Below are positions 792 to 62,836 of a DNA stretch of 64,000 nt, piece after piece (within the stretch, counting starts at the first letter, position 1; every line of letters starts with the position of its first letter). Source of the DNA: Rufibacter immobilis. GTDB taxonomy: Bacteria > Bacteroidota > Bacteroidia > Cytophagales > Hymenobacteraceae. The stretch is from positions 1,240,934 to 1,304,933 of the forward strand of contig NZ_RJJE01000009.1 in assembly GCF_003721565.1 (NCBI RefSeq). Direction: 5' to 3'. The notes below the pieces were generated by a model that did not search any database, was not told where the DNA came from, and saw nothing but the letters and a program-made list of their open reading frames with translations. The position numbers were made by a program, and so were the translations under genes.

Positions 792-855
792 AAAACACAG
801 GATCCGTTTAGGGGCTGTTTTTGGAAAAACAGCCCCTAAACGGATCCTGTGTTTT
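792..855. repeat. 38-bp palindrome family, copy with 13-nt mirrored flanks (core 805-842)
   Basis: The core 805-842 is the family consensus: CGTTTAGGGGCTGTTTTT, central GG, then the exact mirror. The palindrome continues perfectly for 13 more bases per side into copy-specific sequence: AAAACACAGGATC on the left, GATCCTGTGTTTT on the right. It lies between convergent genes and has an A-run outside one arm and a T-run outside the other, so it should work as a terminator on both strands. Confidence 0.95.
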
Positions 856-4882: not shown

Positions 4883-4920
4883 CGTTTAGGGGCTCTTTTT
4901 CCAAAAACAGCCCCTAAACG
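4883..4920. repeat. 38-bp palindrome family, CC-orientation copy
   Basis: The core has central CC (reverse orientation relative to the GG copies). The left arm reads GGGGCTCTTTTT and the right AAAAACAGCCCC, so one internal C·C mismatch remains. The flanks are not mirrored. It starts 18 bases after the permease stop codon. The rest of the gap to 5082 shows nothing recognisable. Confidence 0.92.
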
Positions 4921-6439: not shown

Positions 6440-6874
6440 ATGGCCAGAGGCTTTCTTTCCTGTTTCTTCGTATTGGTCTCTATTTTAGGCGCCGGTTCTG
6501 CTGCGGCCCAGCAGAATGGAACGCCCAACCCCATTGACGTACGCATGGCGCAATGCCTTGACAAAAAAGAAAACCAGACCACTGCGGGCATGTGCGATTG
6601 CGTTTACACCGCGCTGGCCGCTTGGGACAAGAAACTGAACACTGACTACAAATCGCTCTTAGCCCAGCTGCCACCAGCGGCTAAAGGGAAACTGATAGCC
6701 GCGCAAAGGCAATGGCTGGCGTTTAAAGAAAAGGAACTGGAACTGATTGGCGCTACCTATGGCAATGCTCAAGGCACTATGTGGCAACCCGTGCGCGCCA
6801 ACAAAATAATGGATCTCACCAAGCAAAGAGCTCTGGAACTGGAAGAACTCCTGGTTACCCTGAAAGAATTTTAG
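6440..6874 (+). CDS. LprI-like (DUF1311) secreted protein
   Basis: A 144-residue protein with a signal peptide (MARGFLSCFFVLVSILGAGSAAAQ) and a single compact domain. That domain has the LprI/DUF1311 pattern: an early Cys (MAQCLDKKENQT), a C-x-C pair (GMCDCVYTALAAWDKKLN), a Tyr-containing helix and the sequence AQRQWLAFKEKELELIG. The family includes the mycobacterial lysozyme inhibitor LprI, but most members are uncharacterised. The cysteines probably form disulfides in the periplasm. A periplasmic role near peptidoglycan would fit this neighbourhood, but that is inference. Confidence 0.75.
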   Translation: MARGFLSCFFVLVSILGAGSAAAQQNGTPNPIDVRMAQCLDKKENQTTAGMCDCVYTALAAWDKKLNTDYKSLLAQLPPAAKGKLIAAQRQWLAFKEKELELIGATYGNAQGTMWQPVRANKIMDLTKQRALELEELLVTLKEF

Positions 6875-6908
6875 CGAAAGCTCCACTGCTGTTCCGGCAA
6901 TTGGAGAG

Positions 6909-6980
6909 TAAAAACAAGAGTCTTCCGTTTAGGGGCTGTTTTTGGAAAAACAGCCCCTAAACGGAAGACTCTTGTTTTTA
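6909..6980. repeat. 38-bp palindrome family, copy with 17-nt mirrored flanks (core 6926-6963)
   Basis: A consensus core with central GG. Both flanks mirror each other for 17 bases (AAAAACAAGAGTCTTC left of the core, GAAGACTCTTGTTTTT right, plus a further T/A pair), making a 72-bp near-perfect palindrome. It lies between convergent genes, with an A-run and a T-run at the outer ends as expected of a bidirectional terminator. Confidence 0.96.
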
Positions 6981-6988
6981 TGCGTTTA

Positions 6989-9397
6989 TTAAAAATTCCC
7001 TCTAAGCGTCAGGGAGAAATTACGGCCGGGAGCACTTACCCCAGAGGCATACACGCGATAGAACTGGTCTAGCAGGTTCTCCAAAGCGGCCTGTACCTGC
7101 ACGCGGGGGTGCAACTGATAGGCTGTTCTCAGGTTAAGCGTGTACCAGGCGGGCAGCCCTTCGGGAGTGGCGTACTGCAAGTTATCCTCGCCCACGGGGT
7201 TGTAGTCTTTCAGGCGTTTCCAGCCGTTGTACTGCACAAAGAACTCAGACCGGAACTTAGGCAACGTCAGGAATAGGCTGGTTTTCCCGAACACCGGCGG
7301 AATATGGTCCAAAGGAATCTCTGCGGCCTCTCCCTTGATGCGCCCGTAGGTGTAGGTGAGCGTAGAGGCAAGCTGGAAAGCCTGCGTGATGTCTGCCTTC
7401 AGAGAGCCGCTGAACCCGTACACGTAGGCTTTGTTTGCATTCACGTTCGCCACCACCCGGCTCAGGGCACCGTTGTATTCCAGTTGGGTCTGGCCCTGGA
7501 AGGTGAAGGGTTGCGTGGTGATGGCGTCTTTGTACCAGGTGTAAAACCCCACTCCCTCTACCCGCACGCTTCGCGCGATGGTTTTGCCAATGGAAAGCTC
7601 AGCGTTGTAGGTGTACTCCGGCTTCAGGCCAGGGTTGGGTACTATCAGTTGGCCCTGCACAGATTCAAACACTTTGCCCAGATCATCTACATTGGGTGCC
7701 CTAAAGCCCGAGGAAGCCACGGCGGCAAACCGCCATTCCTGCCCCGGCTGAAAAACCAGCCCCACATTTCCGTTCACCGCAGTGTTTTTCTGAGCCACGT
7801 CATTGAACGGGAAAGGGAAGAAACTCTTGTCTTTGGAGAAATCGGCGTTCAGCGCTACCCGGCTCAAACGGATACCATCTGACAGAATCCAGCGCGGCGA
7901 TATTTCCCAGGTATGCGTGAAGTAGGCGGCGGCGGTACGCATGTCTGCACCGCTGCCGGGGTAACGGGTATCCAGGGGGGTGCGTTCACTGGTAACCAAG
8001 TTTGAGCCGTACGCCCGCGAAGACACGTCATTGTAGGTTCCCTCCAACCCGTAGCGCAGCTCATGCTCTCCCAAGAGGCGGCTGGCGTCGGCGTTGAGGG
8101 TGTAGATATCTACGTGCTCAAAGCGGTTCTGCAACACGTTGCGGCTAAACCTCCGGTTATGGCGGCTTTCTTTCACGCGCTGGTAAGCTGCCGTCACCCG
8201 CAGGTTCTCCAGCCAGCCACGGCCCTTAGTGGTAAAAGTGTACGCCGCCAGCCATCGTTCCTGCGGCCCGTAGTACCACTCGCCGTGGTTGAGGGTTCCC
8301 TGTGCGTCCACTTCGGTGAGCCGGTCATACCGCGGAATATCAGAAGAGGTGGAGAACTGTACGTTCAACAGGTGCGAGGTTTTCACGGACGGCTGAAACA
8401 GAACCTTCTGCAATACATCATACTGCCGGTAGCCCGTGAACTTCTGCACGTTCACCTTCTCATTAGGCACCATCACGTCTTTGCCGTCTCTCCACTCCTG
8501 GTAGTATGGCCGGAGCCCCCAGGTGCCGTAGAACGGATTGCGGTTTTTGCCCTGCCGGAGGTCTCCAAAGTCTGAGTACGTGAAGCTGGTGAAACTGCCC
8601 CATTTACGCCCACCCACAGAAACATCTACGTGCCCCGTTTTCTCCTGATTGGCGGTGGCATAGCGCATGAAGGCTCCGCCAGTAACACGGGTGCCGCCGG
8701 TGCTGTCGGTCAGCAGAGGGTTCTTGGTGTAGAAGTGCATGACCCCGCCCAGCGCATCTGAGCCATAGACCACAGAACCCGGCCCAAAGACAATCTCCAC
8801 CTTCTCCAGCGTGGCATTGTCAACGGTGATCACGTTTTGCAGGTGACCGCCCCGGTAAATGGCGTTATTCAGGCGCACGCCATCTATGACCATGAGTACT
8901 TTATTCGCCTCAAACCCACGTAGAATGGGACTGCCGCCCCCAGCCTGACTTTTCTGCACCAGCACCTGCCCAGTCTGCTGCAGCACATCGGCGGTGGTTT
9001 GGTTGCTCTGGAAAGCCAGTTCGCGGGCTTTGAGCACCTGAATCTGCTGGGGCACATCGGCGCGTTTTTCTTCAAACTTGCTGGCAGAAACCACAACTTC
9101 GTCCAGTGAATAACTTTTCTCTACTAGCAGTACCCTGTACTGCATGGCTTTCAGTTGGCTGATGGCCAAAATGCGGGGTTGGTAATCTGCCCGTTCAAAC
9201 CGCAGGCTATCGCTTTCCCCCAATGTGGTCAGGCTGAACCTTCCCCGCAGATCTGTAAGCACACTGCCGCTGCCTTGCACGGGCACCACCCGTACGTTGG
9301 CCAGCGGCTGAAGGCTAGCGCGGTCCTGCACCGTAACGCTCTGCGCCCAGGCTAGGCACGGCAACACCAGCAGCAACAGAAAGAAGAATGGCTTCAT
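6989..9397 (-). CDS. TonB-dependent receptor, hemoglobin/heme type
   Basis: An 802-residue outer-membrane receptor. The signal peptide (to AWAQ, about 19) is followed by a CarboxypepD_reg-like domain (about 20-95), a TonB-box-like EVVVSAS stretch and a plug domain. The plug contains LRGFEANKVLMVIDGVRLNNA and GPGSVVYGSDALGGVMHF, hallmarks of the TonB hemoglobin/transferrin/lactoferrin receptor family. A 22-strand barrel then ends in a C-terminal aromatic (LTLRGNF). It should import an iron- or heme-containing ligand using TonB energy. The ligand cannot be read from sequence. A GNAT gene lies 35 bases upstream in the same direction, so the two are probably cotranscribed. I see no Fur-like box. 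Confidence 0.9.
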   Translation of the reverse strand: MKPFFFLLLLVLPCLAWAQSVTVQDRASLQPLANVRVVPVQGSGSVLTDLRGRFSLTTLGESDSLRFERADYQPRILAISQLKAMQYRVLLVEKSYSLDEVVVSASKFEEKRADVPQQIQVLKARELAFQSNQTTADVLQQTGQVLVQKSQAGGGSPILRGFEANKVLMVIDGVRLNNAIYRGGHLQNVITVDNATLEKVEIVFGPGSVVYGSDALGGVMHFYTKNPLLTDSTGGTRVTGGAFMRYATANQEKTGHVDVSVGGRKWGSFTSFTYSDFGDLRQGKNRNPFYGTWGLRPYYQEWRDGKDVMVPNEKVNVQKFTGYRQYDVLQKVLFQPSVKTSHLLNVQFSTSSDIPRYDRLTEVDAQGTLNHGEWYYGPQERWLAAYTFTTKGRGWLENLRVTAAYQRVKESRHNRRFSRNVLQNRFEHVDIYTLNADASRLLGEHELRYGLEGTYNDVSSRAYGSNLVTSERTPLDTRYPGSGADMRTAAAYFTHTWEISPRWILSDGIRLSRVALNADFSKDKSFFPFPFNDVAQKNTAVNGNVGLVFQPGQEWRFAAVASSGFRAPNVDDLGKVFESVQGQLIVPNPGLKPEYTYNAELSIGKTIARSVRVEGVGFYTWYKDAITTQPFTFQGQTQLEYNGALSRVVANVNANKAYVYGFSGSLKADITQAFQLASTLTYTYGRIKGEAAEIPLDHIPPVFGKTSLFLTLPKFRSEFFVQYNGWKRLKDYNPVGEDNLQYATPEGLPAWYTLNLRTAYQLHPRVQVQAALENLLDQFYRVYASGVSAPGRNFSLTLRGNF

Positions 9398-9953: not shown

Positions 9954-9991
9954 CGTTTAGGGGCAGTTTTTGGAAAAACAGCCCCTAAACG
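9954..9991. repeat. 38-bp palindrome family copy in a divergent gap
   Basis: Nearly consensus, central GG; a single left-arm change (GGGGCAG for GGGGCTG) breaks one pair. The flanks are not mirrored. It is one of the few copies between divergent genes and lies just upstream of the GNAT promoter. Confidence 0.93.
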
Positions 9992-10095: not shown

Positions 10096-11292
10096 ATGAA
10101 AAAGACCCCTTATTTTCTTTTCCTGCTAAGCTTTCTGGCCGCCTGCTCCAGCAGTAAACCGGCCCCCGACACGCCCTCGGCGCAGGCTAACGTGGCTCCT
10201 TCGCCCTTTACCGCCCACATAGACGCCGTTCGGCAACAATTTGCCCCAGACAAGCGGGTGGTTCTTTTCAATGTGTCTTCCAACGGCACGGTGCTCACCG
10301 GCGAGACGAACAACCCAGCCGCCAAAGCCGCCTTGCTGGAGCGCCTGCGCACCGCCGGGGTTTCTTTCCAGGACAGCATTCAGGTACTGCCAGACGCCGC
10401 TTTAAATGGCAAACACCTGGCGGTAGTCACGCTTTCCGTCGCTAATCTGCGCTCTGAACCCAAACACCCCGCCGAACTGGCCACCCAGGCCACCATGGGC
10501 ACGCCCCTGCGCGTCTGGAAACAGAAAAGCGGCTGGTATCTGGTGCAGACCCCCGACCAATACCTGGCCTGGGTAGACGGCAGCGGCATTCAGCTCATGG
10601 ACCAAAACGCCTTCACCAACTGGCAACAGGGCGAAAAACTGCTGTATACCCATCCTTACGGCTTCGCTTACGCCACCCCAGACACCAAAGGCGCCACCGT
10701 CTCTGACCTGGTGTATGGCGATATGATGGTCCTGAAAGGCCAGAACAAAGGCTTTTATGAAGTTTCCTTCCCAGATGGCCGTACCGCGTTTGTCTCAATT
10801 CCGGAGGTGGAGAAATACAGCAAATGGACGGCGAGCCGCCAACCCACCGAGCAAAACCTGGTGGAGACCTCCAAGCGCCTGCTGGGCCTGCCTTACCTGT
10901 GGGGCGGTACTTCCTTTAAAGGCGTGGATTGCAGCGGTTTCACCAAGACGGTATATTTCATGAACGGTCTGGTGCTGCCCCGCGATGCCTCCCAGCAAGT
11001 ACACGTAGGCGACCTGATTGACACCCAGAACGGCTTCCAGAACCTGCGTCCCGGCGATTTGCTCTTCTTCGGGTCACCGGCCAGAGACGGGAAGCCGGAA
11101 CGCGTGGTGCACGTAGGCATGTGGATCGGGAACAACGAGTTCATCCACTCCGCGGGGCGGGTGCGCATCAACAGCATGGACCCCGCCGCGCCCAATCATG
11201 ACGCATCTGAGCTCAAACGCTTCCTGCGCGCCAAACGGGTATCGCCGCAGGCTACTTTGATTGATCTGCGCACGGCTTCTCTTTTCCAGTAG
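10096..11292 (+). CDS. NlpC/P60 (C40) peptidoglycan hydrolase, lipoprotein with SH3-like domains
   Basis: A 398-residue endopeptidase expected to cut D-gamma-glutamyl-mDAP bonds in peptide stems at the periplasmic face. A lipoprotein signal ends LLSFLAAC (Cys about 17). SH3b-like regions follow around residues 110-240 (for example VVTLSVANLRSEPKHPAELATQ), then the C-terminal NlpC/P60 domain. The catalytic residues are visible: Cys279 in GVDCSGFTK, His339 in RVVHVGMWIG, and His351 in FIHSAGR as the third polar residue. The domain order resembles Bacteroidota C40 enzymes with N-terminal SH3b domains, which cut muropeptides with free N-termini. It is the first of several peptidoglycan enzymes in this region. 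Confidence 0.92.
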   Translation: MKKTPYFLFLLSFLAACSSSKPAPDTPSAQANVAPSPFTAHIDAVRQQFAPDKRVVLFNVSSNGTVLTGETNNPAAKAALLERLRTAGVSFQDSIQVLPDAALNGKHLAVVTLSVANLRSEPKHPAELATQATMGTPLRVWKQKSGWYLVQTPDQYLAWVDGSGIQLMDQNAFTNWQQGEKLLYTHPYGFAYATPDTKGATVSDLVYGDMMVLKGQNKGFYEVSFPDGRTAFVSIPEVEKYSKWTASRQPTEQNLVETSKRLLGLPYLWGGTSFKGVDCSGFTKTVYFMNGLVLPRDASQQVHVGDLIDTQNGFQNLRPGDLLFFGSPARDGKPERVVHVGMWIGNNEFIHSAGRVRINSMDPAAPNHDASELKRFLRAKRVSPQATLIDLRTASLFQ

Positions 11293-11304: not shown

Positions 11305-11360
11305 AGGTTTTGGCGTTTAGGGGCTGTTTTTGGAAAAACAGCCCCTAAACGCCAAAACCT
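11305..11360. repeat. 38-bp palindrome family, copy with 9-nt mirrored flanks (core 11314-11351)
   Basis: A consensus core with GG centre. AGGTTTTGG on the left mirrors CCAAAACCT on the right. Beyond one mismatch come an A-run to the left and T-rich sequence to the right, so both flanking convergent genes could terminate here. Confidence 0.95.
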
Positions 11361-11405: not shown

Positions 11406-13961
11406 CTAAACGGGCTGTTTCCGGAGCTGGATGATGAAGGTGGTTCCTTCCCCCACGTTGCTTTCCACGGCAATGCTTCCGCCCATGGCTTTCACCTGGG
11501 CCTGGGTCATGAAAAGTCCCATGCCTTTGCTGTTCTCGTACTTATGGAACCGCTGGTATAGCCCAAAGATCCTTTCCCCAAACCGGCGCAAGTCAATTCC
11601 TAAACCGTTGTCTGAGAAGCGCAACTCTATAAATCCGGCGGTTGCCTTTGTGGTAAGCTGAATCTGTAGGAGTCTTTCCGGGGACCGGTACTTGAGAGCG
11701 TTGGAGAACAGATTAAGCAAAATACTGTACAGGTAGCTGGGATTGGCATACACCGTTTCCCCGGCAGAAAAATCAGTGCGCACGGTGGCATTGCTTTCCC
11801 TGATCTGGTCATCAACGGACAGGAGCACTTTCTGCAGGCTGTTGCCAATGGAGACCTGCTCGGCCTTGAGCCCGCTGTGGTTTCTGATGAGCAGCACATC
11901 TAACAGGTCTTCCAGCGTGCTGCTCAGTTTCAGCGTGGCTTCCTTGAACTTGTGCACCAGGGTGCGGTTCATGTCATCTGAGATGGCCTCTGGGTTAAGC
12001 AACCGTATAATGCCCAGCAGGTTGGCCAATGGTGCCCGCAGGTTATGCGAGGTGATGTACGAAAACTGCTTCAGGTCTGAGTTATTCTGTTTCAGCTCCT
12101 CAATCAGCAACTCTCTTTCCAGTTCATATTCCTTGGTGCCTGAGATATCGCGCATGGCGCCTACCATCCGCACCGCCTGCTGCTGCTCATCCCGCACAAT
12201 GTGGGCCCGGTCCAATACATAGGTGAAAGTACCGTTCTTGCGCATATAGCGGTATTCCATCTGCCAGAGGTGGGCGGCGGGGTCTTCCAGGGCTTCCTCA
12301 AAGGAACGCAGCACCCGCTCTCTGTCTTCTGGATGGATGCGGCCGTGCCGGTCTTCCACTATTTCGTATTCCTGGAACTCGTACCCGAAGACTTTCTCAT
12401 ACACCGCGCCGCTGTACACCTTATTGGTAGTAATTTCCCACTCCCAGATAGCGTCATTGGTGGCCGAAGTGGCCAGATTGTACCGTTGGTTGCTTTGCCG
12501 CAGCGCATTTTCAATGGCTTTGTGCTCCAACAGCATCTGGAGCAGGTTTCTGGAGCTCTCCACAGAATGTATTTCTCCAGGGGTAGGCTCACGCATCTCC
12601 TGATAGTAAATCCCGAAGGTACCCAACACGCGTTGCGTTGAGCTGAAGATGGGGGAAGACCAGCAGGCTTTGAGATTGGCGTCTAAGGCTGTTTGCCGGT
12701 AGTTGGCCCATTTAGGGTCATGCGCAATGCTCTGAGAGAAAACCGGTTTTCCCGTGAACGCCGCCGCGCCGCAGCAGCCTACCTCTGGCTCCACCGCCAA
12801 TCCGTTAATGGCCTGCACGTAGAACGCAGGTAGGCTGGGAGCCGATAAAATGTTGAGCTTCGCATTCTCCAGCAGCATCACGGAGCAAAGCATGTCTGGG
12901 TGAATGCGCTCCAGCCCTTTCAGGTAATAGGTCACTATGTCTTCCAGCTTGCTGTCTGACCGAGTGTTCAGTTCCAGCACTTTCTTGCCCAGGTGCTCCA
13001 GCTCTTCGGCGTGCCGCTGTTTGGTTATATCTTTGAAGTACACAGAGAGCCCATCTTCTGAAGGATAAGCACTTATGGTAAGCCAGGCGTTAAATAAGGA
13101 ATAGTAACTGGTAAAGCTTACTGGCTGGTGTCTGCTCACGGCCACGTGCAGCTTGCGGTAAAGTGAATGGAGCCGCTGGTCCCCAAATGCCTCTCTGATA
13201 TCACGCATGAGGAGCTCACCCCTCTTTCTCCCTGTGATACGCTCCGCTTCCTGGTTCCAATACGTTACTTCCCAATTATGGCCAATGGTGAAGAAACCGT
13301 CTGTGATACTTTCCAGAATGGTATTGATCTGCTCGCGGCTTTTCCTTTGCTCAGCTTCCAGTTTGGCCTCATGCAGATAGGCATTGTCTATAGCGATGGC
13401 CGCCTGGGAGGCGATATTCTGCACCAGCACTTCCTCGTTCTGGGTGAACACGCCGGGTTCAGAGTGCCCAAACAACGCACCACCCAGCACTTTCCCGCTT
13501 TTGGAGATCACCGGAACCGCCATATAGCTTTTTACCGGTAAGTGTCCGCGCGGCATGCCGTGGTGGGGCCGGTTTTGGCCGTACCGTGGGTCTAAGGTGA
13601 TGTTTTCTGACCGCAGAATGCCTTCTCCCCGAAAGGTGGGAGTAAAAACAGCGGTCTTGCGGGGCATAGGGAAACGGCCAAAGTCTTCCTGTTTAGCCCC
13701 TGCCAGGGCATACAGTTCATATACCTCTCCGTTCTTGTCTGTTTTATTGTAGAAAAAGGCCCCAAATTCAGCTTTGCTGATCTTGGTGGCAATGTTAATC
13801 ACTTTCTGCACTACCTTGTCAAGCTCCAGTTCAGAGTTCAGCATTCCCCCTACCTGGTTGACAAGATCTAACTGCCGTTCTTTCTCTTTCAATTCACGCT
13901 CCAAGCGCTCAATGGTTACGAATAACCCCTGCTGGCTAACCTCCTCCTGCGCCAAATCCAT
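11406..13961 (-). CDS. multi-sensor GAF/PAS histidine kinase
   Basis: An 851-residue soluble histidine kinase with no membrane segment. Order: short N-terminal coiled coil (residues 15-35), GAF domain (about 40-205), linker coil, PAS (about 210-325), second GAF (about 345-495), PAS with PAC (about 500-625), HisKA with phospho-acceptor His639 in SYITSHNLRAPL, then HATPase_c with LNLFSNALKYRSP (N box), FSDNGLGIDL (G1) and GMGLFMTQAQVKAMGG (G2). It probably senses a cytoplasmic small molecule or redox state. No response regulator is adjacent and no receiver domain is fused, so its partner lies elsewhere. It is a single-gene transcript from the -7 box at 13999-14006. Confidence 0.93.
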   Translation of the reverse strand: MDLAQEEVSQQGLFVTIERLERELKEKERQLDLVNQVGGMLNSELELDKVVQKVINIATKISKAEFGAFFYNKTDKNGEVYELYALAGAKQEDFGRFPMPRKTAVFTPTFRGEGILRSENITLDPRYGQNRPHHGMPRGHLPVKSYMAVPVISKSGKVLGGALFGHSEPGVFTQNEEVLVQNIASQAAIAIDNAYLHEAKLEAEQRKSREQINTILESITDGFFTIGHNWEVTYWNQEAERITGRKRGELLMRDIREAFGDQRLHSLYRKLHVAVSRHQPVSFTSYYSLFNAWLTISAYPSEDGLSVYFKDITKQRHAEELEHLGKKVLELNTRSDSKLEDIVTYYLKGLERIHPDMLCSVMLLENAKLNILSAPSLPAFYVQAINGLAVEPEVGCCGAAAFTGKPVFSQSIAHDPKWANYRQTALDANLKACWSSPIFSSTQRVLGTFGIYYQEMREPTPGEIHSVESSRNLLQMLLEHKAIENALRQSNQRYNLATSATNDAIWEWEITTNKVYSGAVYEKVFGYEFQEYEIVEDRHGRIHPEDRERVLRSFEEALEDPAAHLWQMEYRYMRKNGTFTYVLDRAHIVRDEQQQAVRMVGAMRDISGTKEYELERELLIEELKQNNSDLKQFSYITSHNLRAPLANLLGIIRLLNPEAISDDMNRTLVHKFKEATLKLSSTLEDLLDVLLIRNHSGLKAEQVSIGNSLQKVLLSVDDQIRESNATVRTDFSAGETVYANPSYLYSILLNLFSNALKYRSPERLLQIQLTTKATAGFIELRFSDNGLGIDLRRFGERIFGLYQRFHKYENSKGMGLFMTQAQVKAMGGSIAVESNVGEGTTFIIQLRKQPV

Positions 13962-14240: not shown

Positions 14241-14294
14241 CCAAAAGCCGTTTAGGGGCTCTTTTTGGAAAAAGAGCCCCTAAACGGCTTTTGG
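14241..14294. repeat. 38-bp palindrome family, compensated variant with 8-nt mirrored flanks (core 14249-14286)
   Basis: The core has CTCTTTTTGGAAAAAGAG in its middle: the usual G-C pair next to the T-run is swapped to C-G on both sides, preserving the stem. The flanks CCAAAAGC and GCTTTTGG mirror each other. Confidence 0.95.
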
Positions 14295-14313: not shown

Positions 14314-15681
14314 TTAATATTTCTCGTGCACCTCCGTCATGATGCGCACCATCTCATTCCGAATGTCACCGGAGGGAACCCTGAAGTTGTTGTTCATAAA
14401 GCTGTAGAGCAACAGCTTGCCGCTCTTGGTCATGATGTAGCCGCTCTGGTTGTGCACGTGGGCCAGCGTCCCAGACTTGCCAAAGACAAACGGAGGCTCC
14501 GCTTTGTAGATGCTCCGGAAGGTGCCGGGCCGCCCGCCAGTGGCCATGAGTGGCAGCAGACGGTCACTGGGGCGTTCCTGCTGTAGTTTCTGAAGCAGGG
14601 CAATGATGCTGCGGGGCGTAAACATGTTCATGCTGGAAAGGCCAGATCCGTCTACCCATACCGGCGCATCTGGCAAATCTGACAAATGGTTCTTGACCAC
14701 GTACCGGATAGCCCGCTCCACCGACAGTGTGTCTGACAGCGTACCGGAGCAGAGGGCCATCAACTGTTCCGCGAAGAGGTTGTCACTTACCTGCAACATG
14801 CGCTTGTACACGGTGTCTGAAGGCAATCCGTAGAAAGTTTTTGCCCCCTGCGGCAGCGCCCGGTTCTTGAGCAGCGTCACTTTCCGTTTCAGGGTATCGG
14901 CTAGTAGTTTTACCGTCATGTCCGGCGACGGAATAAAGGGCACTTCCACGGCGAAATCTGGGGAGGCGTGTTTAGGGTAGTAGGTGAGTTCATTGGTGCG
15001 CCAGGCCCGCACAAAGGCATCGCCGTGGGCGTAACGGGCGGTATCTGTCTTGATGCCGGGTTTGAAGATGGCCGGGGTAGTGGTATACAGCTGGGCAGGA
15101 CCACCTTTCCGCGCGAACTTCACCACATTGCCATGAATGGGAAACACGCTCCGCTCCGGTTGGTAATAATAGTTGTAGTCATCCCAGCCCCAGTTGGTGG
15201 CGAAGGGCGTGCTGGTGTAAGGCGCTTCCAGGTAGTAGAGTTTCTCTTTCCGGTTCTTCAGGAAGTCATAGGCCACGGTGTTCTTGAGGTCCATGTGGGC
15301 GAAGGTAGGGTCGCCGGTGCCCCAGAAGATAAGGGAATCGCCGCGCACCACGTATTTGAGCGCCGGAATAGAATCGCCTAGCATCTTGAGGCAGGCGTAG
15401 AACGTGAACAGCTTGGTGTTGGAGGCGGGCACAAAATACTTGTCGGCGTTATGTTCCACCACCATCTTGCCCAGGGCAGGGTCATAGAGCGCGAAACCCA
15501 CAAACCGGTTCTTGCCCACCTCAGACTCCAGCACCCGCTGCCTGATCACCTCTGGCCCGTACGGCGGCGGCGCTGGCTCAGAGGCCACCGGGGTTTGCTT
15601 GGCGGTGCCACAGCCCAGCAGTAAGAGCATCAAAAGACAAGGGAACAGGTGCCAGTAGCGGCCAGAGAAGGAAAGGTGCAT
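14314..15681 (-). CDS. dacB: D-alanyl-D-alanine carboxypeptidase/endopeptidase, PBP4 (S13) type
   Basis: A 455-residue penicillin-binding protein that removes the terminal D-Ala or cuts D-Ala-mDAP cross-links in peptidoglycan. The N-terminal lipobox LLLLGC (Cys24) suggests a lipid anchor. The three serine-acyltransferase motifs are present: Ser87-Asn-Thr-Lys90 (PASNTKLF), SDN in VSDNLFAEQLM, and KSGT in FGKSGTLAHVHNQSGYI. Length and motif spacing, with a large insert between motifs one and two, fit the S13/DacB family. It is divergent from the LD-carboxypeptidase next to it. No clear -7 box was found. Confidence 0.9.
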   Translation of the reverse strand: MHLSFSGRYWHLFPCLLMLLLLGCGTAKQTPVASEPAPPPYGPEVIRQRVLESEVGKNRFVGFALYDPALGKMVVEHNADKYFVPASNTKLFTFYACLKMLGDSIPALKYVVRGDSLIFWGTGDPTFAHMDLKNTVAYDFLKNRKEKLYYLEAPYTSTPFATNWGWDDYNYYYQPERSVFPIHGNVVKFARKGGPAQLYTTTPAIFKPGIKTDTARYAHGDAFVRAWRTNELTYYPKHASPDFAVEVPFIPSPDMTVKLLADTLKRKVTLLKNRALPQGAKTFYGLPSDTVYKRMLQVSDNLFAEQLMALCSGTLSDTLSVERAIRYVVKNHLSDLPDAPVWVDGSGLSSMNMFTPRSIIALLQKLQQERPSDRLLPLMATGGRPGTFRSIYKAEPPFVFGKSGTLAHVHNQSGYIMTKSGKLLLYSFMNNNFRVPSGDIRNEMVRIMTEVHEKY

Positions 15682-21171: not shown

Positions 21172-21209
21172 CGTTTAGGGGCCGTTTTTCTAAAAACAGC
21201 CCCTAAACA
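21172..21209. repeat. 38-bp palindrome family, CA-ended copy
   Basis: Left arm CGTTTAGGGGCCGTTTTT, centre CT, right arm AAAAACAGCCCCTAAACA. The last base is A instead of G and is followed by GAAAAG, as in several other copies. Confidence 0.92.
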
Positions 21210-27957: not shown

Positions 27958-28032
27958 GAATTCTTTCCTTTAAGAGAGTAACAACCTTTTACCAGGTCAC
28001 CGATATCATAAAGGAAGCTGAAACAGGAAGTG

Positions 28033-28070
28033 CGTTTAGGGGCTATTTTTCTGAAATAAGCCCCTAAACG
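28033..28070. repeat. 38-bp palindrome family, right member of an inverted pair
   Basis: CGTTTAGGGGCTATTTTT, CT, GAAATAAGCCCCTAAACG, with 3-nt mirrored flanks (GTG and CAC). It lies 10 bases after the rfbB stop on the minus strand. Confidence 0.93.
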
Positions 28071-28080
28071 CACGAGAATC

Positions 28081-34875: not shown

Positions 34876-34919
34876 TTGCGTTTAGGGGCTGTTTTTCCAA
34901 AAACAGCCCCTAAACGCAA
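34876..34919. repeat. 38-bp palindrome family, CC-orientation copy with 3-nt mirrored flanks (core 34879-34916)
   Basis: The exact reverse orientation of the consensus (centre CC). TTG on the left mirrors CAA on the right. It lies between convergent genes and is immediately followed by an ordinary hairpin. Confidence 0.95.
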
Positions 34920-41245: not shown

Positions 41246-41293
41246 AAATGCGTTTAGGGGCTGTTTTTGGAAAAAGAGCCTCTAAACGCATTT
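41246..41293. repeat. 38-bp palindrome family copy with 5-nt mirrored flanks (core 41251-41288)
   Basis: CGTTTAGGGGCTGTTTTT, GG, AAAAAGAGCCTCTAAACG. The flanks AAATG and CATTT mirror each other and the right side runs into a T-run, making it a likely dusB terminator. It is the left neighbour of the 215-bp repeat. Confidence 0.93.
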
Positions 41294-50588: not shown

Positions 50589-50626
50589 CGTTTCTGGCCT
50601 ACTTTTTTCAAAACAGGCTGGAAACG
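50589..50626. repeat. probable highly diverged 38-bp palindrome acting as terminator
   Basis: CGTTTCTGGCCTACTTTT, TT, CAAAACAGGCTGGAAACG: exactly 38 bases with the same CGTTT/AAACG ends, T-run and A-run, and a partly paired GC block of changed sequence. It lies at a convergent junction like the standard copies. It could be an independent hairpin. Confidence 0.5.
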
Positions 50627-54229: not shown

Positions 54230-54275
54230 AAGCCGTTTAGGGGCCGTTTTTCAGAAAACGGCCCCTAAATGGCTT
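54230..54275. repeat. 38-bp palindrome family, compensated copy with 4-nt mirrored flanks (core 54234-54271)
   Basis: The core has GGGGCCG on the left and CGGCCCC on the right: a T-A pair of the consensus has become C-G on both sides. The right end reads TAAATG instead of TAAACG. The AAGC flank mirrors GCTT and is followed by a T-run. In the 483-base gap 54151-54633 nothing else but the -7 box is recognised. Confidence 0.92.
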
Positions 54276-55788: not shown

Positions 55789-55836
55789 TTTTCCGTTTAG
55801 GGGCTTTTTTCGGGAAAACAGCCCCTAAACGGAAAA
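55789..55836. repeat. 38-bp palindrome family copy with 5-nt mirrored flanks (core 55794-55831)
   Basis: CGTTTAGGGGCTTTTTTC, GG, GAAAACAGCCCCTAAACG. TTTTC on the left mirrors GAAAA on the right. It lies between the convergent MscS and TerB genes, ten bases from the TerB stop. Confidence 0.93.
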
Positions 55837-56709: not shown

Positions 56710-56753
56710 TGGCGTTTAGCGCCTGTTTTTGTAAAAACGGTCCCTAAACGCCA
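56710..56753. repeat. 38-bp palindrome family copy with 3-nt mirrored flanks (core 56713-56750)
   Basis: CGTTTAGCGCCTGTTTTT, GT, AAAAACGGTCCCTAAACG, flanked by TGG and CCA. It lies in the 292-base gap between TerB and the tRNAs, one of few copies at a divergent position. The rest of the gap shows only a weak TTTG...TATTTGC promoter-like pair near 56881-56912. Confidence 0.9.
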
Positions 56754-56949: not shown

Positions 56950-57024
56950 GGGATGTTAGCTCAGCTGGTTCAGAGCATCTGCCTTACAAGCAGAGGGTCG
57001 CTGGTTCGAATCCAGCACGTCCCA
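56950..57024 (+). tRNA. tRNA-Val (anticodon TAC), copy 1
   Basis: The acceptor stem GGGATGT pairs with ACGTCCC (one T-G wobble), with discriminator A and no encoded CCA visible (ACTTAC follows). The D arm GCTC...GAGC, anticodon stem TCTGC/GCAGA with loop CTTACAA (anticodon TAC at 56985-56987), and T arm GCTGG TTCGAAT CCAGC are complete. A symmetric terminator follows within ten bases. Confidence 0.97.
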
Positions 57025-57109: not shown

Positions 57110-57184
57110 GGGATGTTAGCTCAGCTGGTTCAGAGCATCTGCCTTACAAGCAGAGGGTCGCTGGTTCGAATCCAGCACGTCCCA
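57110..57184 (+). tRNA. tRNA-Val (anticodon TAC), copy 2
   Basis: Identical over all 75 bases to the copy starting 160 bases upstream (anticodon 57145-57147). The identity extends only about eight bases downstream (CTTACAT) and a few upstream (TCGGG versus TTGGG), so the duplicated block is little more than the tRNA itself. Confidence 0.97.
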
Positions 57185-62788: not shown

Positions 62789-62836
62789 GTTTGCGTTTAG
62801 GGGCTGTTTTTGGAAAAACAGCCCCTAAACGCAAAC
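62789..62836. repeat. 38-bp palindrome family copy with 5-nt mirrored flanks (core 62794-62831)
   Basis: An exact consensus core with GG centre, flanked by GTTTG and CAAAC. It separates nusB from ytxH, both on the minus strand, and so may end the nusB transcript. Confidence 0.95.

Follow-up and report, generated by a model that had tools for sequence, protein, structure and literature searches.

The window, by which we mean the whole stretch of 64,000 nucleotides analysed here, contains 24 members of a family of short palindromes (defined by at most four mismatches over two 10-base arms), and many of them continue as paired sequence into flanks that differ from copy to copy. The plan of the family is a 36-bp palindrome, GTTT..GGCCTGTTTT....AAAACAGGCC..AAAC. 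At 6909-6980 the hairpin sits between converging reading frames, with an A-run on its left and a T-run on its right, and is therefore terminator-like on both strands; as RNA it is predicted to fold into a single long stem (-59.1 kcal/mol, z -13.4). If only uninterrupted pairing is counted, starting at the ends of the 36-bp core GTTTAG...CTAAAC, the mirrored flank (hereafter the mirror) measures at least four bases in 11 of the 24 members and falls short of this in 13; 1.4 members would be expected to reach four bases if the flanks of different copies were paired. The initial annotation had listed mirror lengths for these 11 copies, and they were borne out at every coordinate that it gave; its numbers are obtained from those in Table 1 by subtracting one C/G pair, which it had counted inside a 38-bp core.

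Table 1. Family members in the window, with mirror lengths counted from the edges of the 36-bp core.
Feature	Strand	Core	Mirror (bp)	Remarks
792-855		806-841	14	hairpin
4884-4919			1	unmirrored copy
6909-6980		6927-6962	18	hairpin; outer arms 6909-6926 and 6963-6980
9955-9990			1	unmirrored copy; divergent gap
11305-11360		11315-11350	10	hairpin
14241-14294	-	14250-14285	9	hairpin
21173-21208			0	unmirrored copy
28030-28073		28034-28069	4	hairpin
34876-34919		34880-34915	4	
41246-41293		41252-41287	6	T-run on right
54230-54275		54235-54270	5	one arm CTAAAT; T-run on right
55789-55836		55795-55830	6	
56710-56753		56714-56749	4	
62789-62836		62795-62830	6	

Converging reading frames also flank the hairpin at 11305-11360 (10096-11292 on the plus strand and 11406-13961 on the minus strand), and the hairpin at 14241-14294 lies immediately downstream of a minus-strand reading frame (14314-15681). 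Six genomes were compared: the source genome (G), R. psychrotolerans (A), Sabulibacter ruber (B), R. hautae (H), strain SYSU D00344 (Dd) and strain XAAS-G3-1 (X). Relatives are syntenic with the first 22 kb of the window, mostly at 71-82% identity. At the place orthologous to 792-855, hairpins of the same plan with other arms are present in six relatives (L072, L073, L074, L076, L077 and L088; four further relatives could not be mapped there), and the gap of the 6927 copy also holds hairpins with other arms in relatives. The 28034 locus is mirrored in all six genomes, with outer arms that have changed together (AAGTGC, AGATGC and AAAGGC types). Four of five relatives are mirrored at the 55795 locus with different arm sequences, two of four at the 62795 locus with other arms, and three at the 56714 locus (mirrors of 6, 6 and 4) with identical innermost arm bases. 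At the 34880 locus the mirror is only 0-1 in five relatives, whose right flanks begin alike with (G)AAGA, and the gap of the unmirrored copy at 4884-4919 contains, as judged by eye, decayed family members in three relatives. Just right of the 56714 copy lie tandem tRNA genes with equal scores (56950-57024 and 57110-57184); in an Rfam scan of the window only these two tRNAs reached the gathering score.

The family is not confined to the source genome. With a matrix built from sequences of this plan, 494-700 members are detected per Mb of each of the six Rufibacter-group genomes, while a resampled control (one sequence per genome) gives at most 2% of this density at score 10; the matrix was deliberately made symmetric, so that any polarity of the element is invisible to it. 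Relatives follow the same plan in different letters, with GTTT leading to a variable stretch, CTGTTTT and a small loop, after which the sequence returns as its mirror image. The 26 copies listed for R. latericius (G060), for instance, include 22 in which the variable stretch of five bases is perfectly matched, in 13 versions. Copies with exact 10-base arms number 528 in the source genome and 0 to 33 in each of 15 relatives from the genus, and none was found in the 43 searched genomes from other genera. The density in the source genome (494 per Mb) is not raised compared to the 530-700 per Mb of the relatives; its 645 members in 1.30 Mb include 81 inside predicted reading frames, the gene calls being simple long reading frames. 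Separately, the general GTTTnnnnnCTGTTTT hairpin pattern occurs in 688 copies in R. ruber (G066) compared to 8 to 204 in nine other relatives, and R. ruber is another species with a burst.

Outside the source genome, members are mostly imperfect and their two arms nearly independent. Near-perfect members (at least 14 of 16 pairs) nevertheless exceed expectation in A (22 versus 3.9), B (13 versus 2.9), H (11 versus 2.8) and Dd (14 versus 2.6), and fully paired members (16/16) do so in G (79 versus 28). Orthologous cores in H and Dd match at 28.7 of 36 positions compared to 21.2 for random pairs. The cores of G, on the other hand, resemble one another more closely (26.8) than they resemble their orthologues in A (24.8). 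G has thus homogenised its cores, and many G tips are alike (GTTTAGGGGC...) within an old set of gaps. The flanks next to the core could be aligned with the orthologue at only 4 of 28 exact-core sites, compared to 18 of 50 other G sites, and some cores may therefore have been re-made or re-inserted in the same gap rather than converted in place. A scenario that we regard as doubtful is an active process in which hundreds of old tips of G have been rewritten in place to one sequence without insertion, each conversion also copying flank onto flank, so that a whole set of terminators would change together through template switching, acting inside single loci and perhaps from one locus to another. 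As to inversion of the spacer, orthologous cores matched better when inverted (by at least 4) in only 3 of 136 cases for H-Dd and 9 of 138 for A-B.

Across the genome the mirrors are far in excess of chance. We examined 157 of the 528 exact-arm copies, i.e. those in positions 1-1304933 (1.30 Mb, minus 933 bases) of contig C1, after dropping copies near the ends of the stretch or near unread bases. The distribution has two humps, with a mirror of 0-1 in 42 copies, 2-3 in 14 and at least 4 in 101; the mirror is at least 6 in 66 and at least 8 in 39. Pairing left flanks with the right flanks of other copies predicts 16, 1.9 and 0.12 copies with mirrors of at least 4, 6 and 8, respectively. An origin of the pattern by chance or as an assembly artefact, in favour of which nothing was found, can for practical purposes be disregarded, given these numbers and the recurrence of the same pattern in other genomes.

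Family sites are old at the level of the gap between genes. A gap with a member in one species corresponds to a gap with a member in the other species in 56 of 58 cases for G-A, 31 of 34 for G-H, 69 of 73 for A-B and 68 of 69 for H-Dd; for gaps without a member the numbers are 5 of 35, 3 of 20, 4 of 38 and 2 of 45, respectively. At the level of individual copies, 145 of 152 anchored members in H are matched by a member in Dd and 109 of 120 anchored members in G by a member in A. Loci without anchors on both sides were dropped from these orthology counts and from those of alignable flanks, sister-locus arm changes, own-arm changes and bare hairpins, and for 525 of the 645 G members the examined stretch of A provided no anchoring. 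The mirrored state is inherited as well: a mirrored copy has a mirrored orthologue in 12 of 13 cases from H to Dd, 11 of 12 from A to B and 8 of 22 from G to A, compared to 2 of 108, 5 of 104 and 1 of 52 for unmirrored copies (gaps holding more than one member excluded). Taken together, the sharing of gaps across species and the inheritance of the mirrored state make the flanks look like the outer stems of old hairpins and not like insertion scars. The arms change in concert between species. At the locus at 1192742 in G, cores that differ between G, H and Dd are enclosed by the same outer arms, CCTACTCCC/GGGAGTAGG; in B the pair is changed on both sides, and hence compensated, and A is intermediate.

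In the five relatives, mirrored members are concentrated at gene ends and nearly disappear from divergent promoters. They account there for 44 of 167 members in convergent gaps, 42 of 370 in tandem gaps and 2 of 81 in divergent gaps (convergent versus divergent, p = 1e-6), and in G for 49 of 148, 87 of 337 and 13 of 79, respectively (p = 0.008). At tandem mirrored copies TTTT is found on the sense 3' side more often than on the other side (22 versus 7 in the relatives, 24 versus 6 in G), and at convergent mirrored copies it is found on both sides (17 and 18 in the relatives, 9 and 10 in G). Together, the concentration at gene ends and the sense-side T-tracts fit intrinsic terminators, and the sequence data are consistent with the mirrored family hairpins at gene ends being putative terminators or mRNA 3' ends. 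Among the exact copies TTTT lies near the stem base on either side in 41 of 101 mirrored and 11 of 42 unmirrored copies, showing that many mirrored copies are not obvious terminators. On the sense strand of tandem copies isolated G-U pairs outnumber isolated A-C pairs (145 to 106, p = 0.016); no such excess was observed at convergent copies (61 to 70).

To account for the mirrors, the initial annotation had offered insertion into the loop of a terminator hairpin already in place or the copying of one flank onto the other. For copies with a mirror of at least 6, 100 orthologous gaps were tested. A family member is already present in 97 of them, the same 6-base arms enclose an insert of core size in 25, and none contains these arms as a bare hairpin. 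The first of the two proposals, in which a mobile palindrome enters the loop of a terminator hairpin whose arms then become the mirrored flanks, consequently appears very improbable to us, even though the outer arms often resemble terminator bases with A/T runs and one locus, at 1192742, keeps its outer arms around different cores. Also pointing away from it, the pairing reaches the core in mirrored copies with no leftover loop, which is true by the counting rule; in a few other copies, such as C1 72941 and 162852, one or two unpaired bases separate the core from the flank pairing. The second proposal came with the expectation of empty sites with only one arm, and here the gaps gave no such signal: single-armed relatives were found in 23 of the 100 gaps compared to 20.3 by chance and thus are not enriched overall. 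As a source of mutations the copying of flank onto flank is nevertheless the better-supported part of what had been proposed, based on two individual loci, B105083 and A74946, and on the association of perfect arms with mirrors.

At B105083 the sister species A and B share the right flank, and their right arms differ at one position in 16, whereas their left arms differ at 7 of 16. In B, 14 of the 16 positions of the left arm are paired with the right arm, and four flank bases continue the pairing, while the mirror in A is 0. One arm, together with its flank, thus appears to have been altered so as to fit the conserved arm opposite, and this speaks for arm copying by template switching; the direction of this change rests on parsimony. 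When the linked changes are compared with the reverse complement of the unchanged arm, as expected for a template switch, they are two bases off. An orthologue was not found in the examined stretches of the other four genomes, and in the three genomes of the genus with matches to both sides, the flanking matches lie 20-38 kb apart. A74946 is a terminator beside what by eye is a family-like repeat. The beginning of that repeat recurs as its complement on the left of the terminator, whereas the counterpart in B has an unrelated left flank. In 25 of 992 tests the changes were explained by the copy's own opposite arm (score of at least 5), compared to 5.8 with the arms of random copies. Loci at which neither inner arm matched at 11 of 16 positions were dropped, and since the null could draw the locus itself this comparison is slightly conservative. 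Of the 25 tests, 21 are in A/B, and the numbers for H/Dd are 4 versus 1.9; an excess of this kind would also arise from compensatory selection.

In G, mirrors track the perfection of the inner arms more than the gene context, even at divergent gaps where no terminator is needed. Among the 157 exact copies a mirror of at least 8 is present in 24 of the 50 with perfect inner arms and in 15 of the other 107. With at least 14 of 16 inner pairs, G copies are mirrored in 42 of 64 convergent, 71 of 129 tandem and 10 of 23 divergent cases (convergent versus divergent, p = 0.08), and in divergent gaps 10 of 23 near-perfect copies are mirrored compared to 3 of 56 with imperfect arms (p = 0.0001). At 13 loci with perfect arms in one sister species and imperfect arms in the other, the change was no more lopsided than at imperfect loci, and divisions between the arms of 5/5, 7/7 and 4/5 occur.

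Combining the extension of the short palindromes into mirrored flanks with the data on inheritance, we suggest that a longer hairpin underlies each copy, which forms its tip, that the arms of this hairpin are kept matching, and that the copy-specific mirrored flanks would be its outer base-paired stem. The arms probably stay matching through DNA copying that sometimes uses one arm as template for the other. In this model, (i) the raw material would be provided by template switching during replication (quasipalindrome correction), in which the nascent strand turns back on itself at the palindrome, is extended along the opposite arm and sometimes along a few to about 17 flank bases as well, and returns, (ii) a single event of this type would turn an imperfect palindrome into a perfect one and an ordinary flank into a mirrored one, and (iii) at gene ends selection for termination or for protection of the mRNA 3' end would keep the stem paired, while elsewhere it would decay. 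That selection matters in addition to copying is indicated by the inherited outer stems, the age of the sites and the many gene-end locations with terminator features. Setting B105083, A74946 and the own-arm excess against the null results for single-armed relatives and for lopsidedness, we estimate the probability that template switching plus selection at gene ends explains the mirrored outer stems to be roughly 60%.

Because the one-arm test came out at chance, compensatory selection alone stays a serious rival; we consider it possible but not likely. According to this explanation, needed terminators or mRNA 3' ends acquire single substitutions via G-U intermediates that keep both arms and flanks paired. 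It accommodates the inherited mirrored state and its gathering at gene 3' ends in the relatives, the sense-side T-tracts, the surplus of G-U over A-C in tandem copies, the state of the 1192742 locus in R. psychrotolerans, which looks intermediate, and the lack of a general excess of one-armed relatives. It sits less well with the tendency of family terminators to have longer stems (median stem score 17, n = 160) than the remaining terminators of these genomes (11, n = 202), with the mirroring of perfect G copies at divergent gaps, and with B105083, where seven arm changes plus the flank changes fall on one side and a single change on the other. Alternatively, the mirror could be templated at insertion, if the palindrome moved as single-stranded DNA, joined one flank and primed synthesis on it, so that the insertion would be born mirrored. 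The co-occurrence of a perfect core with a long mirror, the hundreds of near-identical cores in G, the many mirrored G sites without a mirror in a relative (14 of 22 versus A), the poor conservation of adjacent flanks at exact-core sites and the presence of family members near Y1-type transposase loci are all in line with such a mechanism. We find it unlikely, however, given that the sites are old at gap level, that the density in G is not raised, that most Y1-type loci lack the family on one side or both, and that a clean recent empty site was not found. Specifically, no clean empty hairpin was present among 38 orthologues without a member, many of which are weak matches inside genes (imperfect G copies and large gaps were left out), and no empty site emerged from 10 near-perfect copies "inside genes", as most of these are found where an over-long or doubtful reading frame starts.

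Systems already described share some of the features reported here. Like the Rufibacter family, REP elements are short intergenic palindromes with hundreds to thousands of copies per genome, and with 36 bp and 528 exact-arm copies the family falls within the definition of a high-copy intergenic palindrome of 20-40 bp. The GTAG and CGTC REP families are described as short palindromes, many of them near the 3' ends of converging or unidirectional genes (PMC3733652). REP elements carry the unpaired tag GTAG/CGTC, however, whereas in the Rufibacter family the GTTT of the core is paired with AAAC and in the 157 exact copies the flank on either side mostly continues with GC or GG. Moreover, RAYT-associated REPs flank their transposase gene and are present or absent at sites between related genomes, whereas here flanking on both sides is rare, presence at gap level is conserved, and flanks are mirrored copy by copy. 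Without the tag and without a consistent two-sided transposase, we do not file the family as a RAYT-type REP, though it resembles one. Rufibacter is not named in the accessible main text of a recent REP survey (PMC12306157), and among the papers listed in literature searches none concerned this family in Rufibacter, which is no proof of absence.

The family shares with intrinsic (Rho-independent) terminators the hairpin at the 3' end of a gene and the T-tract on the sense 3' side, or on both sides if genes converge, and differs from them by its longer stems, its shared repeat tip and the many mirrored copies without a T-tract. In Neisseria, DNA uptake sequences are short genome-specific words, inverted pairs of which form terminators at gene ends. 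These words are mostly single, whereas half-sites of the Rufibacter family almost never stand alone (30 of the 31 exact 10-base half-sites in the window lie inside listed palindromes). Template switching as the origin of perfect stems is already in print. A yeast study reportedly described homogenisation of inverted-repeat arms and spacer inversion by this route, and a 2003 article is said to have dealt with quasipalindrome correction in bacterial genomes. For hairpins of RNA genes, template switching has been proposed to turn arms into perfect complements with paired changes arising together (PMC8794818). Inverted-repeat arms that become perfect complements and change in pairs are what our data share with these mutations; the difference is that a single repeat family with hundreds of hairpins between bacterial genes is concerned here, that the effect reaches into unique flanks and that the mechanism is inferred for most of them.

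With one genus offering hundreds of hairpins in matching gaps of several species, in which cores and flanks are rewritten in concert, template switching and compensatory selection become separable locus by locus as ways in which long perfect stems originate and are kept up. The data suggest how terminators could turn over genome-wide without transposition, and they caution against taking unique mirrored flanks as a sure sign of insertion into a hairpin.

A Y1-type transposase was considered as the evident mobiliser of the family and rejected, as the family lies on both sides of only 4 of 20 Y1-type loci; at 16 of 20 a member lies within 450 bp on at least one side. In G a single Y1_Tnp family hit was obtained, to which a protein search added weaker relatives and fragments, and a different palindromic repeat lies upstream of this gene. 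A repeat of the GGGA..TCCC type accompanies 8 of the 20 loci, and repeats of the GGGATT...AATCCC kind lie near the Y1-type gene of G and of closer relatives (L051 1221-1370; L052-L058, L067), where they are perhaps its real partner.

Three further observations concern individual repeats. The family member at 50590-50625 in the window (GTTTCTGGCCTAC...AGGCTGGAAAC) is, unlike most members, nearly letter-identical in A, H, Dd and X, with conserved flanks, and may be a functional RNA or a hairpin with a regulatory role. Another dispersed palindrome, of the form AGACCTCACAGGTTT-loop-AAACCTGTGAGGTCT, recurs in gaps of two relatives (L074, L072; A66781, A294503). Finally, a repeat with inverted halves like GTCATCCTGAAAGGATCTTGTG ... 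CACAAGATCTTTCCAAGATGAC recurs in relatives near the gap orthologous to 6874-6989 of the window (L072, L074, L076, L078).
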